This document shows positions 7,317-14,158 of a DNA stretch of 23,785 nt, piece by piece. Within the stretch, counting starts at the first letter, position 1; every line of letters starts with the position of its first letter. Where the stretch lies: positions 1-23,785 of IMG/VR virus record IMGVR_UViG_3300031565_000374; one strand, 5' to 3'. This DNA comes from a virus. A program made the translations under genes and the position numbers. The notes under the pieces were generated by a model. It was not told the origin of the DNA, did not search any database, and worked only from the letters and a program-made list of their open reading frames with translations.

Positions 7317-7496
7317 TTATTGCATATAATCGTCAGGCCCTCTTTGTTGAATGCCACCACTAAAAGCCTTCTTAATAGATAATTTATAAAAATCTATTTC
7401 TGATAAAAGTATTTTTATGATTTTAGCCGAAGGTGTATTATCTTTAATAAATTTAGCCTTTATAATACGCAAGTCTTTTTCACTTAAATGTTTCAT
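7317..7496 (-). CDS. Small basic protein (59 aa)
   Basis: ATG 7496 is preceded by GGAGAAAAA, a good ribosome site. The product is 59 residues, rich in Lys and Ile, with a predicted helical core and the C-terminal segment GGIQQRGPDDYMQ. No family recognised; the length and charge are common for phage host-takeover or nucleic-acid-binding proteins, but nothing here shows a role. It sits in the gap between the fusion enzyme gene and the SSB gene. Confidence 0.55.
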   Translation of the reverse strand: MKHLSEKDLRIIKAKFIKDNTPSAKIIKILLSEIDFYKLSIKKAFSGGIQQRGPDDYMQ

Positions 7497-7641: not shown

Positions 7642-9312
7642 TTAGCAAAAGTTTTCTGATATCCTTTTCAAATATTCTCTAGAAATTTCTTTTTCTTTAC
7701 ACCCATGAAATGCTAATATTTCATCTTTTTTAATTTTTTCAAAAATAAATTTCCCATGAATATATTCACTATTTTTTTTATAATCATATTGAATATAACA
7801 TCTTCCTAAATTTTTAGGCTCTTCTTTTTCCCATATCAAACAATTCATTATAGATTCGTCGCCAAATGGAAATAGTCTATGATCGACGTATAAATATTTA
7901 TCCAGAACTTTATTAAAAAAATCTAAACAATTTTTATTAAAAATAGAAATACACGCATGTAAATAAACAGTATTATTTGTTATTTTACAATTAAAATATT
8001 TTTTTTCATTATTCAACAAATTATATGGATCTAACAACATAAAATGAACAGGTAACAAAGAATAATCTTCTATCTTGCAAGTATTATTCCATATATTATC
8101 TATTTTAGGAAATGCAATTATATCTGAATCCAACCATACAACTTCATCAAATCCAATTTGAAGACATTTAATATATGATAATACTTTCTGAATGAATATT
8201 GGACATCGATACCTATTTTCTATGTCTAAATGTGAAAAATCGTCGTGTGTAAATGATAATATATTATATTTGGAAAACTTGTTAATACTCTCTACCAATA
8301 CTTGATTTAGTTCATAATCTTCGTTAGAATAAAAAGTAACAAAACACCTCTTTTTATCTTCTTTCTTTTTTATTATTATTAAATTATTGTCTATTTTGTT
8401 TCTAATATGTGGTATTTTATATATATCAATAAATTCTATTTCAAAATCATTTAATAATGTTTCTCTTATAGAATTAAATTGCTCTATTACATAAACATCT
8501 TCTATTATATAATAACCACCCGACTTTAAATTATTAAAAGAATTAATTAAAAAATTAAAGTTTGATTCATATGTATGCAATCCATCATCAATAATTATAT
8601 CGAATAAAACATCTATTTGATTAAACATATCTTTTATTGATTTTGAACTTAATGAATCACAATAAAAAGTTTCTATGTTTTTTTCCTTGAATAATATTTT
8701 TTTATCTATGTCTGCTCCATATATTCTAGCATTTTTAAAATATTCTCTCCATCCCCTAAGTGATGCACCAGGTTTTCCTGCTTTGCCCATATTCGATAGA
8801 ATACTTACATCATTAGAACCAATTCCCAATTCAAATAAATTTATATTTTTATATCTCATACCTTGAAAAAGTGCATGGTAAAATAATGTATAATTATGAT
8901 ATGTTGACTTATCGCTACCATGTTTTTTCATTATTTCACAAAGAGGTGTTTCGCCTAAAGAACCATTTTCGTCCAAATATATGTTTTCTTTATATAAATC
9001 AATTTTTTTATATTCTTTATTTTCATTTAATAATATATGAGATAATATCAACATATCTTCATCTTTATCTATTATTTCTATTCGATATTCTTTACATTTG
9101 ATGTTGCAAATTGCCCAACAATTAATTGGCAGACAATTGTCGGTTATTTCCACATCATACAACATTTTATTGTTTATATTATCATAGAAATGTATTTTAT
9201 AAACTATTACTTTGTCATTGTTTGGTTTTTTAATAAAAACCATTGGCTTACAATCAAGAGTAATATATACATTTATAATTCTATTTTTATAATTAAATTT
9301 GAAATAATTCAT
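7642..9312 (-). CDS. O-methyltransferase-glycosyltransferase fusion with N-terminal beta domain
   Basis: The 556-aa protein has three parts. Residues 1-115 are beta-strand rich and not recognised. Residues 120-315 are a class I SAM methyltransferase of the sugar/macrolide O-methyltransferase type: HGSDKSTYHNYTLFYHALF, SAM loop FELGIGSND (160-168), YGADID (198-203), IIDDGLHTYES (240-250) and GGYYIIEDVYV (265-275). Residues 322-556 are a GT-A glycosyltransferase with the metal-binding DSD (395-397, in VVWLDSDIIAF) and a late HG motif (536-537) reminiscent of GT8. It could add and methylate a sugar on the phage particle, phage DNA or a host surface glycan; the target is unknown. Two sampled 60-base lines have 17-23% GC, against 30-38% in neighbouring genes, and the ribosome site is poor; both suggest an acquired cargo gene. 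Confidence 0.85.
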   Translation of the reverse strand: MNYFKFNYKNRIINVYITLDCKPMVFIKKPNNDKVIVYKIHFYDNINNKMLYDVEITDNCLPINCWAICNIKCKEYRIEIIDKDEDMLILSHILLNENKEYKKIDLYKENIYLDENGSLGETPLCEIMKKHGSDKSTYHNYTLFYHALFQGMRYKNINLFELGIGSNDVSILSNMGKAGKPGASLRGWREYFKNARIYGADIDKKILFKEKNIETFYCDSLSSKSIKDMFNQIDVLFDIIIDDGLHTYESNFNFLINSFNNLKSGGYYIIEDVYVIEQFNSIRETLLNDFEIEFIDIYKIPHIRNKIDNNLIIIKKKEDKKRCFVTFYSNEDYELNQVLVESINKFSKYNILSFTHDDFSHLDIENRYRCPIFIQKVLSYIKCLQIGFDEVVWLDSDIIAFPKIDNIWNNTCKIEDYSLLPVHFMLLDPYNLLNNEKKYFNCKITNNTVYLHACISIFNKNCLDFFNKVLDKYLYVDHRLFPFGDESIMNCLIWEKEEPKNLGRCYIQYDYKKNSEYIHGKFIFEKIKKDEILAFHGCKEKEISREYLKRISENFC

Positions 9313-12808: not shown

Positions 12809-14158
12809 CTATTCCGAAATGAAAGTTTGTGTAATGTCTTGTAAATCTTGATAGTTATATCCAAAATATACCTTTGTAGGAAATACTTTTAGTATATCCC
12901 GTAAACCATTTATCATTTCTTTACCATCGTCTTGACTTATATCAAACAGAAAAGAATCGTAAATATACAATACCAACTTTGATTTATAGTTTCGTAAATA
13001 CTCGTTGATTCTTTTCATCAATACTAAATTGGCTTCTGTTTCCATTAATTGTATAAAATAATTAAATACCTTTGTTGGGCTGGCGTCTTCTATTTGTTTT
13101 TTGTATATCTTTCTTCCAGATAAAGGCGATTCATAAAATCCATCTTTTTTTATTTGTCGCCAAATGGCGAAATAAAAATCTTGAACCTCGGCAAAAAATG
13201 GTATCGCATCCCTAACTTCTTTTGGTACTCCACCATATAAATATTGAAAATTCAAAGTTTTGGAGTCGGCATATTCTTCGTCGGTCAGTTCATCCTTTCC
13301 AAAGTAATAACGACCTAAATATGTATGTATACTCTTTTCGCTAAATTCGTGTCCTATCAACTTAGCAATCAAACTCAAATGATATGAATCAAAATCAAAT
13401 AATAACAACGCATCATTTCTTGGAATAAATGACCTTCTGTGACCCTTTTCTTTATCAATCGCAACAAAGTTGAGACCACCATAACGATTTGACGGGCGAC
13501 CCGCGGATGTGTAAAAGTTGTATTCACTGAATATACGACTGTCATCTGATACATAAGGTATTACCTTGTCGCCATAATAATGTTGTAATAATGACAAATC
13601 AACCTTGAGTCCCTGAGATTCCACTTCATACATCGTCGTTAGATTCTCAGTGTAAAAATCAAAGGCAGCCGGTATATAATGATTATGAAGTATCGTAACC
13701 ATCTTCCCCGCATTGTCTTGATGTAACTCTATGTGTTTTGGAAGTGGAATATAAATGTTTATATCTTCTTCTTGACTGAACTTTCTGTTGAAATAAAGGT
13801 GTGTAGGCGTGTCCAGAATCCATTGAGGCACATCGTTGTAATGCAAGTAGTAAAACATATCAACATCTTTTATGTCTTTGTTTTTTATAAAACTTAGAAG
13901 TCTTTTTTGGTTGATAGTCCATATCGTTTTAGGTTGTATTTCTTCTAATAACGATACATCCATATCAACTGTGTCTGTATGATTAAAACCAATAATATAT
14001 TCGTCGTCAGATTCTATAACTCTTACATAAATAAGAGATAAATGATTGTCACAGGGATGCTTATACGGACTCGTCAATGTGGGTAAAATGATTATATCTT
14101 TGTTTTCGATTGTCGCCTTGAAAATGGCGAAATCCTCTATTGTTTCTATTATGTTCAT
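12809..14158 (-). CDS. Family A DNA polymerase, divergent, without visible exonuclease domain
   Basis: The 449-aa protein carries the polymerase core of the Pol I family: SAGRPSNRYGGLNFVAI (218-234; like TGRLSS..NLQNIP), motif A DFDSYHLSLIAKL (255-267, catalytic D255), motif B K300-x3-F304-x3-Y308-G309, and motif C YDS (400-402, catalytic D401). Compared with Klenow, the steric-gate Glu710 is replaced by His260, Arg754 by Tyr296, His881 by Tyr400 and Glu883 by Ser402. Residues 1-190 show none of the usual DxE-type 3'-5' exonuclease motifs, so proofreading must come from another gene or be absent. The 5' nuclease is separate (3541-4593). Rhodothermus phage RM378 also has a split Pol I-type enzyme. 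It is probably the replicative polymerase. AAGG lies six bases before ATG 14158. Confidence 0.85.
   Translation of the reverse strand: MNIIETIEDFAIFKATIENKDIIILPTLTSPYKHPCDNHLSLIYVRVIESDDEYIIGFNHTDTVDMDVSLLEEIQPKTIWTINQKRLLSFIKNKDIKDVDMFYYLHYNDVPQWILDTPTHLYFNRKFSQEEDINIYIPLPKHIELHQDNAGKMVTILHNHYIPAAFDFYTENLTTMYEVESQGLKVDLSLLQHYYGDKVIPYVSDDSRIFSEYNFYTSAGRPSNRYGGLNFVAIDKEKGHRRSFIPRNDALLLFDFDSYHLSLIAKLIGHEFSEKSIHTYLGRYYFGKDELTDEEYADSKTLNFQYLYGGVPKEVRDAIPFFAEVQDFYFAIWRQIKKDGFYESPLSGRKIYKKQIEDASPTKVFNYFIQLMETEANLVLMKRINEYLRNYKSKLVLYIYDSFLFDISQDDGKEMINGLRDILKVFPTKVYFGYNYQDLQDITQTFISE

Follow-up and report, generated by a model that had tools for sequence, protein, structure and literature searches.

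A tailed-phage protein predicted to join a TibC-type β-barrel to a sugar O-methyltransferase and a GT-A glycosyltransferase

Our analysis of a stretch of viral DNA of 23,785 nucleotides (IMG/VR record IMGVR_UViG_3300031565_000374, positions 1 to 23,785; hereafter the window) identifies a gene, P0001, whose product appears to combine the N-terminal β-barrel of bacterial TibC-type protein O-heptosyltransferases with two enzymes, a MycE/TylE-type O-methyltransferase and a GT-A fold glycosyltransferase (Table 1). We give an even chance to the reading that this is a soluble, single-chain enzyme by which a tailed phage glycosylates proteins, and that its acceptor is most likely a virion protein. An earlier note on the DNA had already described a single 556-aa three-part protein in a phage genome, with a sugar-type O-methyltransferase, a GT-A glycosyltransferase and an unrecognised β-rich N-terminus. 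The ORF is indeed intact and three domains can be assigned to it; the domain search that the note proposed found both catalytic domains fused in one chain, the methyltransferase by PDB profile and the glycosyltransferase by model, and both enzyme classes held. The N-terminus is unmatched in Pfam, NCBIfam and PHROGs, as the note would have it, but can now be identified as TibC-type by profile comparison.

Table 1. Features of P0001 and of the segment that carries it (window positions)
Feature	Position	Strand	Basis or remark
Inserted segment relative to sister phage L178	7218..9342 (ends approximate)	(-)	~2.1 kb in the window versus ~40 bp in L178
P0001, whole ORF, 556-aa three-domain protein	7642..9312	(-)	ATG to TAA, stop codon included
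Residues 1-120, predicted TibC-type N-terminal β-barrel domain	8953..9312	(-)	hhalign, HMM, alignment
SLGET (about residues 118-122), counterpart of TibC SLGDT, putative fusion junction	8947..8961	(-)	alignment, hhalign
Residues 121-316, complete MycE/TylE-type SAM-dependent O-methyltransferase	8365..8952	(-)	PDB 3ssm, E 1e-9; stand-alone relatives
D243, H246, E271, D272 of the methyltransferase	8497..8586	(-)	alignment with MycE
Residues 318-556, predicted GT-A fold glycosyltransferase, GT8/GT34-like layout	7645..8361	(-)	AlphaFold2 model, fold matches
D395-S-D397, DxD motif	8122..8130	(-)	D395 and D397 invariant in two alignments
D485-E486, invariant acidic pair	7855..7860	(-)	two alignments
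H536-G-C-K539, C-terminal HGxK motif	7696..7707	(-)	H and K invariant; G in at least 90%

Neither PF21129 nor TIGR04414 matches P0001 directly. The clue to the identity of its N-terminal domain came from WWT39291, a protein of phage Mel-JY01 that has the methyltransferase in common with P0001 and carries, further on, a full TibC-type O-heptosyltransferase (317 bits against TIGR04414, for a cut-off of 200, and E 2e-69 against PDB 4rap). With the TibC module of this protein we fetched viral loci with TibC-like enzymes (at least 80) and derived a barrel HMM from them, the query being left out. P0001 scored 18.4 bits against this HMM; 5000 shuffles of its N-terminus reached at most 10.3 bits, and 1691 control ORFs at most 9.5. 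Using hhalign, residues 14-122 were aligned with the TibC barrel at 96.8% probability (E 2.4e-10), compared with no more than 15% among 200 shuffles and 18.4% among 300 real decoys. Moreover, the alignment of the domain to TibC barrels keeps an invariant W and SLG[DE]T, the motif at the start of the TibC catalytic lobe. On these profile and alignment comparisons, residues 1-120 are a homologue of the β-barrel with which TibC-type protein O-heptosyltransferases begin, and we infer that a TibC-type gene was cut just past SLG[DE]T and then joined to another enzyme. TibC itself no longer heptosylates TibA once its first 80 or 95 residues are deleted. Its barrel lies against the catalytic domain and contributes to the dimer interface, and between substrate recognition and enzyme integrity as its role the authors decide for neither (PMC4358343).

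The methyltransferase is the only part of P0001 that Pfam and PHROGs recognise when given the whole protein; NCBIfam returned nothing relevant, and matches to tetracycline-leader and coronavirus profiles were taken as chance. Residues 124-275 match the structures of MycE and TylE (PDB 3ssm, E 1e-9). The close subfamily consists of stand-alone enzymes of ~205 aa, mostly 45-54% identical and bearing the motif SNMG..KPGASLR, and because these align to exactly residues 121-316 we consider that the whole methyltransferase is present. D243, H246, E271 and D272 are invariant among 26 sequences and are aligned with residues of MycE which we take to be metal-binding and catalytic, P0001 having both the class I SAM fold of the MycE type and its D, H and ED residues. 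Relatives at 42-50% identity were found in 9 of 197 Pelagibacteraceae genomes, and a SAR11 methyltransferase was the only match in a scan of a genome collection. The relatives closest to P0001 are located in loci devoid of TibC, GT or repeat genes.

Submitted alone to Pfam, residues 318-556 matched no glycosyltransferase family at E up to 10, Glyco_transf_8 included, and by sequence the domain is not GT8. The PDB profile match (6mw5, E 0.15) was too weak to be used alone. An AlphaFold2 model covering this domain only, built from the glycosyltransferase alignment, reached a pLDDT of 80.7 and a pTM of 0.82 (a single-sequence prediction gave a pLDDT of 35). Its top Foldseek match is the PBCV-1 capsid glycosyltransferase (E 1e-7), and VIA-align ranked glycogenin (Z 16.3), WbbM (16.2), LgtC (15.4) and PBCV-1 A64R (15.1) highly among hundreds of GT-A matches, the best of which (Z 16.3) extends over 197 residues with an rmsd of 3.5. 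In the alignments an N is also invariant, besides the DxD, the DE and the H and K of HGxK. On the model, the C-terminal part of P0001 has the GT-A fold and lies in the neighbourhood of retaining enzymes. Its relatives are found in the middle of phage proteins of ~915 aa (GT4 - GT - FkbM) and as stand-alone proteins of ~275 aa, and the family looks virus-enriched, since the profile matched 114 viral stretches but, among 299 genomes from a single bacterial phylum, just one.

The window is part of a phage genome: among its scanned proteins are gp32-, RecA-, DnaB- and 5'-3' exonuclease-type products and a family A polymerase. Within the phage collection, the window is closest to Microcystis phage Mel-JY01, both by RecA (48% identity) and by one large protein. 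The polymerase-like protein (12809-14158, minus strand) has just 449 aa and matches the C-terminal part of the Pfam model. The plus-strand ORF at 1034-1672 (212 aa), opposite in direction to its neighbours, encodes a lipoprotein-like signal (LLSSC) and a tail rich in Ser, Lys and Gln, and is conserved in the sister phage L177. Some 5 kb past the right end of the window, a contig of the same phage population (3300031566_003864; L173:1192-2142) encodes a radical-SAM-like protein with a CNFKCPYC motif. The window holds no tRNA and no Rfam family, and the number of promoter-like matches in it is near chance level. The P0001 gene recurs, with 0 differences over 1671 bp, in two other IMG/VR contigs of this population (L001 and L002), which are 99.5-99.8% identical to the window across 9-11 kb. 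After the preceding stop, its frame offers no ATG, GTG or TTG start besides the ATG used here.

The earlier note had pointed to a very low GC content, a poor ribosome site and a recent acquisition; the low GC was confirmed, the poor ribosome site holds in the sense given below, and the recent acquisition is supported. The gene has 22.8% GC (16% at third positions), versus 28-38% for the 12 neighbouring genes tested. The sole purine-rich stretch before its ATG, AAAAGG, ends ~14 nt from it, too distant for a good Shine-Dalgarno. The sister phage L178, whose RecA is 86% identical and whose flanks are colinear at 71-84%, has an empty site: ~40 bp separate the counterpart of the gene upstream of P0001 from the gp32 leader. 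P0001, the GT profile and TIGR04414 found no match in the 168-kb record of the sister phage, which may be incomplete. This empty site and the low GC support a recent acquisition of the P0001 gene. In related phages (L177-L255) the site upstream of gp32 carries variable cargo of ~0.1 to 2.1 kb, and it is a cargo hotspot. A 59-aa ORF (MKHLSEKDLRII...; 7317-7496, minus strand) is also present inside the inserted segment, downstream of the fusion gene.

How are these modules arranged in other viruses? Loci fetched by the glycosyltransferase alone contain an operon encoding a GT4-GT-FkbM protein, a MycE-like methyltransferase and a GT4-barrel-GT9 (TibC-like) protein. A TibC-like gene lies nearby in 37 of the 49 non-redundant GT loci, and the methyltransferase in 33. 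At one locus (L294), the closest relative of the N-terminal domain from a dedicated scan (blastp E 5e-8) overlaps an adjacent stand-alone P0001-type glycosyltransferase (E 6e-10). In the loci to which all four models were applied, sampled by patterns and limited to 80 per scan, P0001 is the only barrel-methyltransferase-glycosyltransferase fusion and the only barrel without a GT9 domain. As to the search for the same three-domain order that the note proposed, the fused order was found in no other examined locus; the same modules do occur as neighbouring viral genes.

Collagen-like genes made of long (SSGTSG)n Ser/Thr-Gly repeats, with up to two thirds Ser/Thr per 60-residue stretch, accompany TibC-like genes in many of these viruses (L012-L171 and L006, for example L043:7167-9350, L168:10362-12542 and L139:10349-12538), often 30-71 bp from the operon. 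One repeat protein was compared with PHROGs and matches its tail-fibre and collagen-like minor-tail families, with scores of a kind that low complexity inflates. With clusters defined at 90% identity, 25 of 39 TibC-like clusters that have the glycosyltransferase in the locus also have a repeat gene, which is directly downstream on the same strand in 18; for clusters without the glycosyltransferase in the locus these numbers are 11 and 2 of 43. Loci fetched by RecA, an imperfect control as they are not near tail genes, gave 0 of 80. In nearly whole-contig scans, Mel-JY01 and two large contigs had one repeat gene each, at most ~8 kb from a TibC-like gene, and a third large contig had five, one of them adjacent to a TibC-like gene. 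From their composition and location, the (SSGTSG)n proteins are candidate acceptors of protein O-glycosylation.

In a different group of loci, heptose-kinase-like and heptose-adenylyltransferase-like genes were observed beside TibC-like genes (L062:6972-7712, L299:6199-6945 and L087:7080-7496), as if some viruses made their own ADP-heptose. The kinase-like neighbour scores 84.6 bits against TIGR02198 and the adenylyltransferase-like one 95.8 bits against TIGR02199, both under the cut-off, and an S74-type fibre is also a neighbour in these loci.

The comparisons establish the domain identities, the conserved catalytic residues, the fusion, the insertion and the linkage of the modules in other viral genomes; from them we infer the catalytic activity of P0001, its acceptor and docking, the order of the reactions and the biological benefit. 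The TibC-type barrel would hold the protein on its acceptor or within a glycosylation complex. The GT-A domain, presumably metal-dependent and retaining, would move a sugar from a nucleotide-sugar onto the acceptor or onto a sugar already there, and the MycE-type domain would O-methylate that sugar using SAM and a divalent metal. Because the three modules adjoin (SSGTSG)n fibre genes in other viruses, the likeliest acceptor would be a protein of the virion, for instance a tail fibre rich in Ser and Thr; P0001 probably puts a methylated sugar on a virus protein. Several facts weigh against this virion reading: P0001 lacks the GT9 heptosyltransferase part that would start the glycan, the sister phage lives without the gene, neither a repeat fibre nor a TibC-like gene was found in the window or in the 6.4 kb known beyond it, and the loci of the closest methyltransferase relatives lack the other modules. 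Furthermore, the linkage of the modules to repeat fibres is guilt by association, as tail-fibre regions also collect host-recognition genes. A broader proposal, which we put forward tentatively and at rather less than even confidence, is that tailed phages carry TibC-type (BAHT-like) O-glycosylation for Ser/Thr-Gly repeat fibres, some with their own ADP-heptose-type genes, the barrel being a portable docking module that in P0001, the single-chain form, has recruited another glycosyltransferase and a methyltransferase. We found no description of a phage system linking TibC-type enzymes to repeat tail fibres in a literature search that covered few subscription journals.

The earlier note had left virion proteins, phage DNA and a host glycan as possible targets. 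The TibC-type barrel and the operon beside repeat fibres favour the first, as do the resemblance of the GT-A model to enzymes that glycosylate capsids and proteins and the precedent of cluster O mycobacteriophages described below. The main rival, which we regard as unlikely but deserving attention, is that P0001 adds and methylates a sugar on a glycan of the host surface, either the LPS O-chain or the capsule, and so blocks competing phages by superinfection exclusion or serotype conversion. Glycosyltransferases of pelagimyophages have been interpreted in this way (PMC7029224), the methyltransferase has relatives in Pelagibacteraceae, the LPS enzymes LgtC and WbbM are among the best fold matches, and P0001 sits by itself as cargo where related phages vary; however, its N-terminal domain comes from protein O-glycosyltransferases, and elsewhere among viruses the modules go together with repeat fibres. 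That the enzyme modifies DNA, glycosylating and methylating modified bases against host nucleases, seems to us barely credible: the gene does sit among replication genes, and phage DNA glucosyltransferases exist, but those of T4 are GT-B enzymes whereas the P0001 model matches GT-A protein and polysaccharide enzymes, and no base-(hyper)modification gene was seen among the window proteins scanned. The DNA target mentioned in the note is thus left without support.

The position of the barrel on the catalytic domain of TibC and in its dimer interface (PMC4358343) would also suit a bifunctional glycosyltransferase and methyltransferase whose barrel is a mere structural or oligomerisation leftover of recombination and whose target is unrelated to TibC-type substrates. 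This possibility, with which the uniqueness of the fusion among the loci examined agrees, is in our opinion improbable: the barrel persists in an intact ORF, and relatives of the glycosyltransferase and of the barrel stand side by side in operons, pointing to a common pathway. We see very little likelihood in the idea that the gene is a recent arrival, scarcely expressed or decaying, that serves no function at present. The very low GC, the weak ribosome site and the absence from the sister phage would be explained by it, but the ORF is intact and identical in three assemblies, and both enzymes keep their conserved catalytic residues. An artefact was also considered and given low weight.

If the virion reading of P0001 is true, a family of bacterial enzymes that glycosylate adhesins becomes connected with phage virions, and the (SSGTSG)n collagen-like fibre repeats become a concrete acceptor. 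The TibC barrel would be able to work with other catalytic domains, so that its role, recognition or integrity (PMC4358343), becomes testable, and methylated glycans are predicted on the virions of uncultured phages.

Phage-encoded glycosyltransferases together with an O-methyltransferase are a feature that P0001 shares with a phage system of virion protein glycosylation. In cluster O mycobacteriophages (Corndog type), glycosyltransferase genes adjoin an O-methyltransferase gene, and their products are reported to modify proteins of the capsid and of the tail tube (PMC11600133, citing Freeman et al. 2023). These are separate genes, in other phages and hosts than those of P0001, and no TibC-type barrel is reported for them. 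Mel-JY01, a distant relative of the phage of the window, comes closer in architecture, as WWT39291 (1227 aa) likewise unites a TibC-type barrel with a MycE-like methyltransferase in a single chain. Unlike P0001, it keeps the heptosyltransferase, in the order GT4 - MT - barrel - GT9, and the Mel-JY01 genome has no detectable P0001-type glycosyltransferase. We found no mention of Mel-JY01 or of a phage TibC in the literature searched, subscription journals being little covered.

Each enzyme domain also has its counterpart. MycE and TylE (PDB 3ssm, 8ia9) have the SAM fold and the D/H/E-D residues in common with P0001; their substrates are macrolide sugars and they carry no glycosyltransferase domain, whereas the P0001 methyltransferase is fused and its sugar acceptor is putative. 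PBCV-1 A64R (PDB 2p6w), which glycosylates a viral capsid protein, shares with glycogenin, LgtC and P0001 the GT-A fold, the DxD and the C-terminal HG, but A64R and the GT8 enzymes are only 10-14% identical to the P0001 domain, which has no Pfam GT8 match. Finally, P0001 resembles the TibC/Aah enzymes (BAHT; TIGR04414, Pfam TibC_1st PF21129, PDB 4rap/4rb4) in a predicted β-barrel of ~110 residues, SLG[DE]T included, and differs in having a methyltransferase and a GT-A enzyme in place of the GT9/GT-B catalytic domain. This heptosyltransferase domain was tested and is absent (TIGR04414 does not match P0001, and the TibC-like GT9 model matches other loci only), and with it the iron finger (four Cys) and the β-hairpin thumb that it holds. 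P0001 therefore lies outside the BAHT family and is made of modules from BAHT-type clusters.
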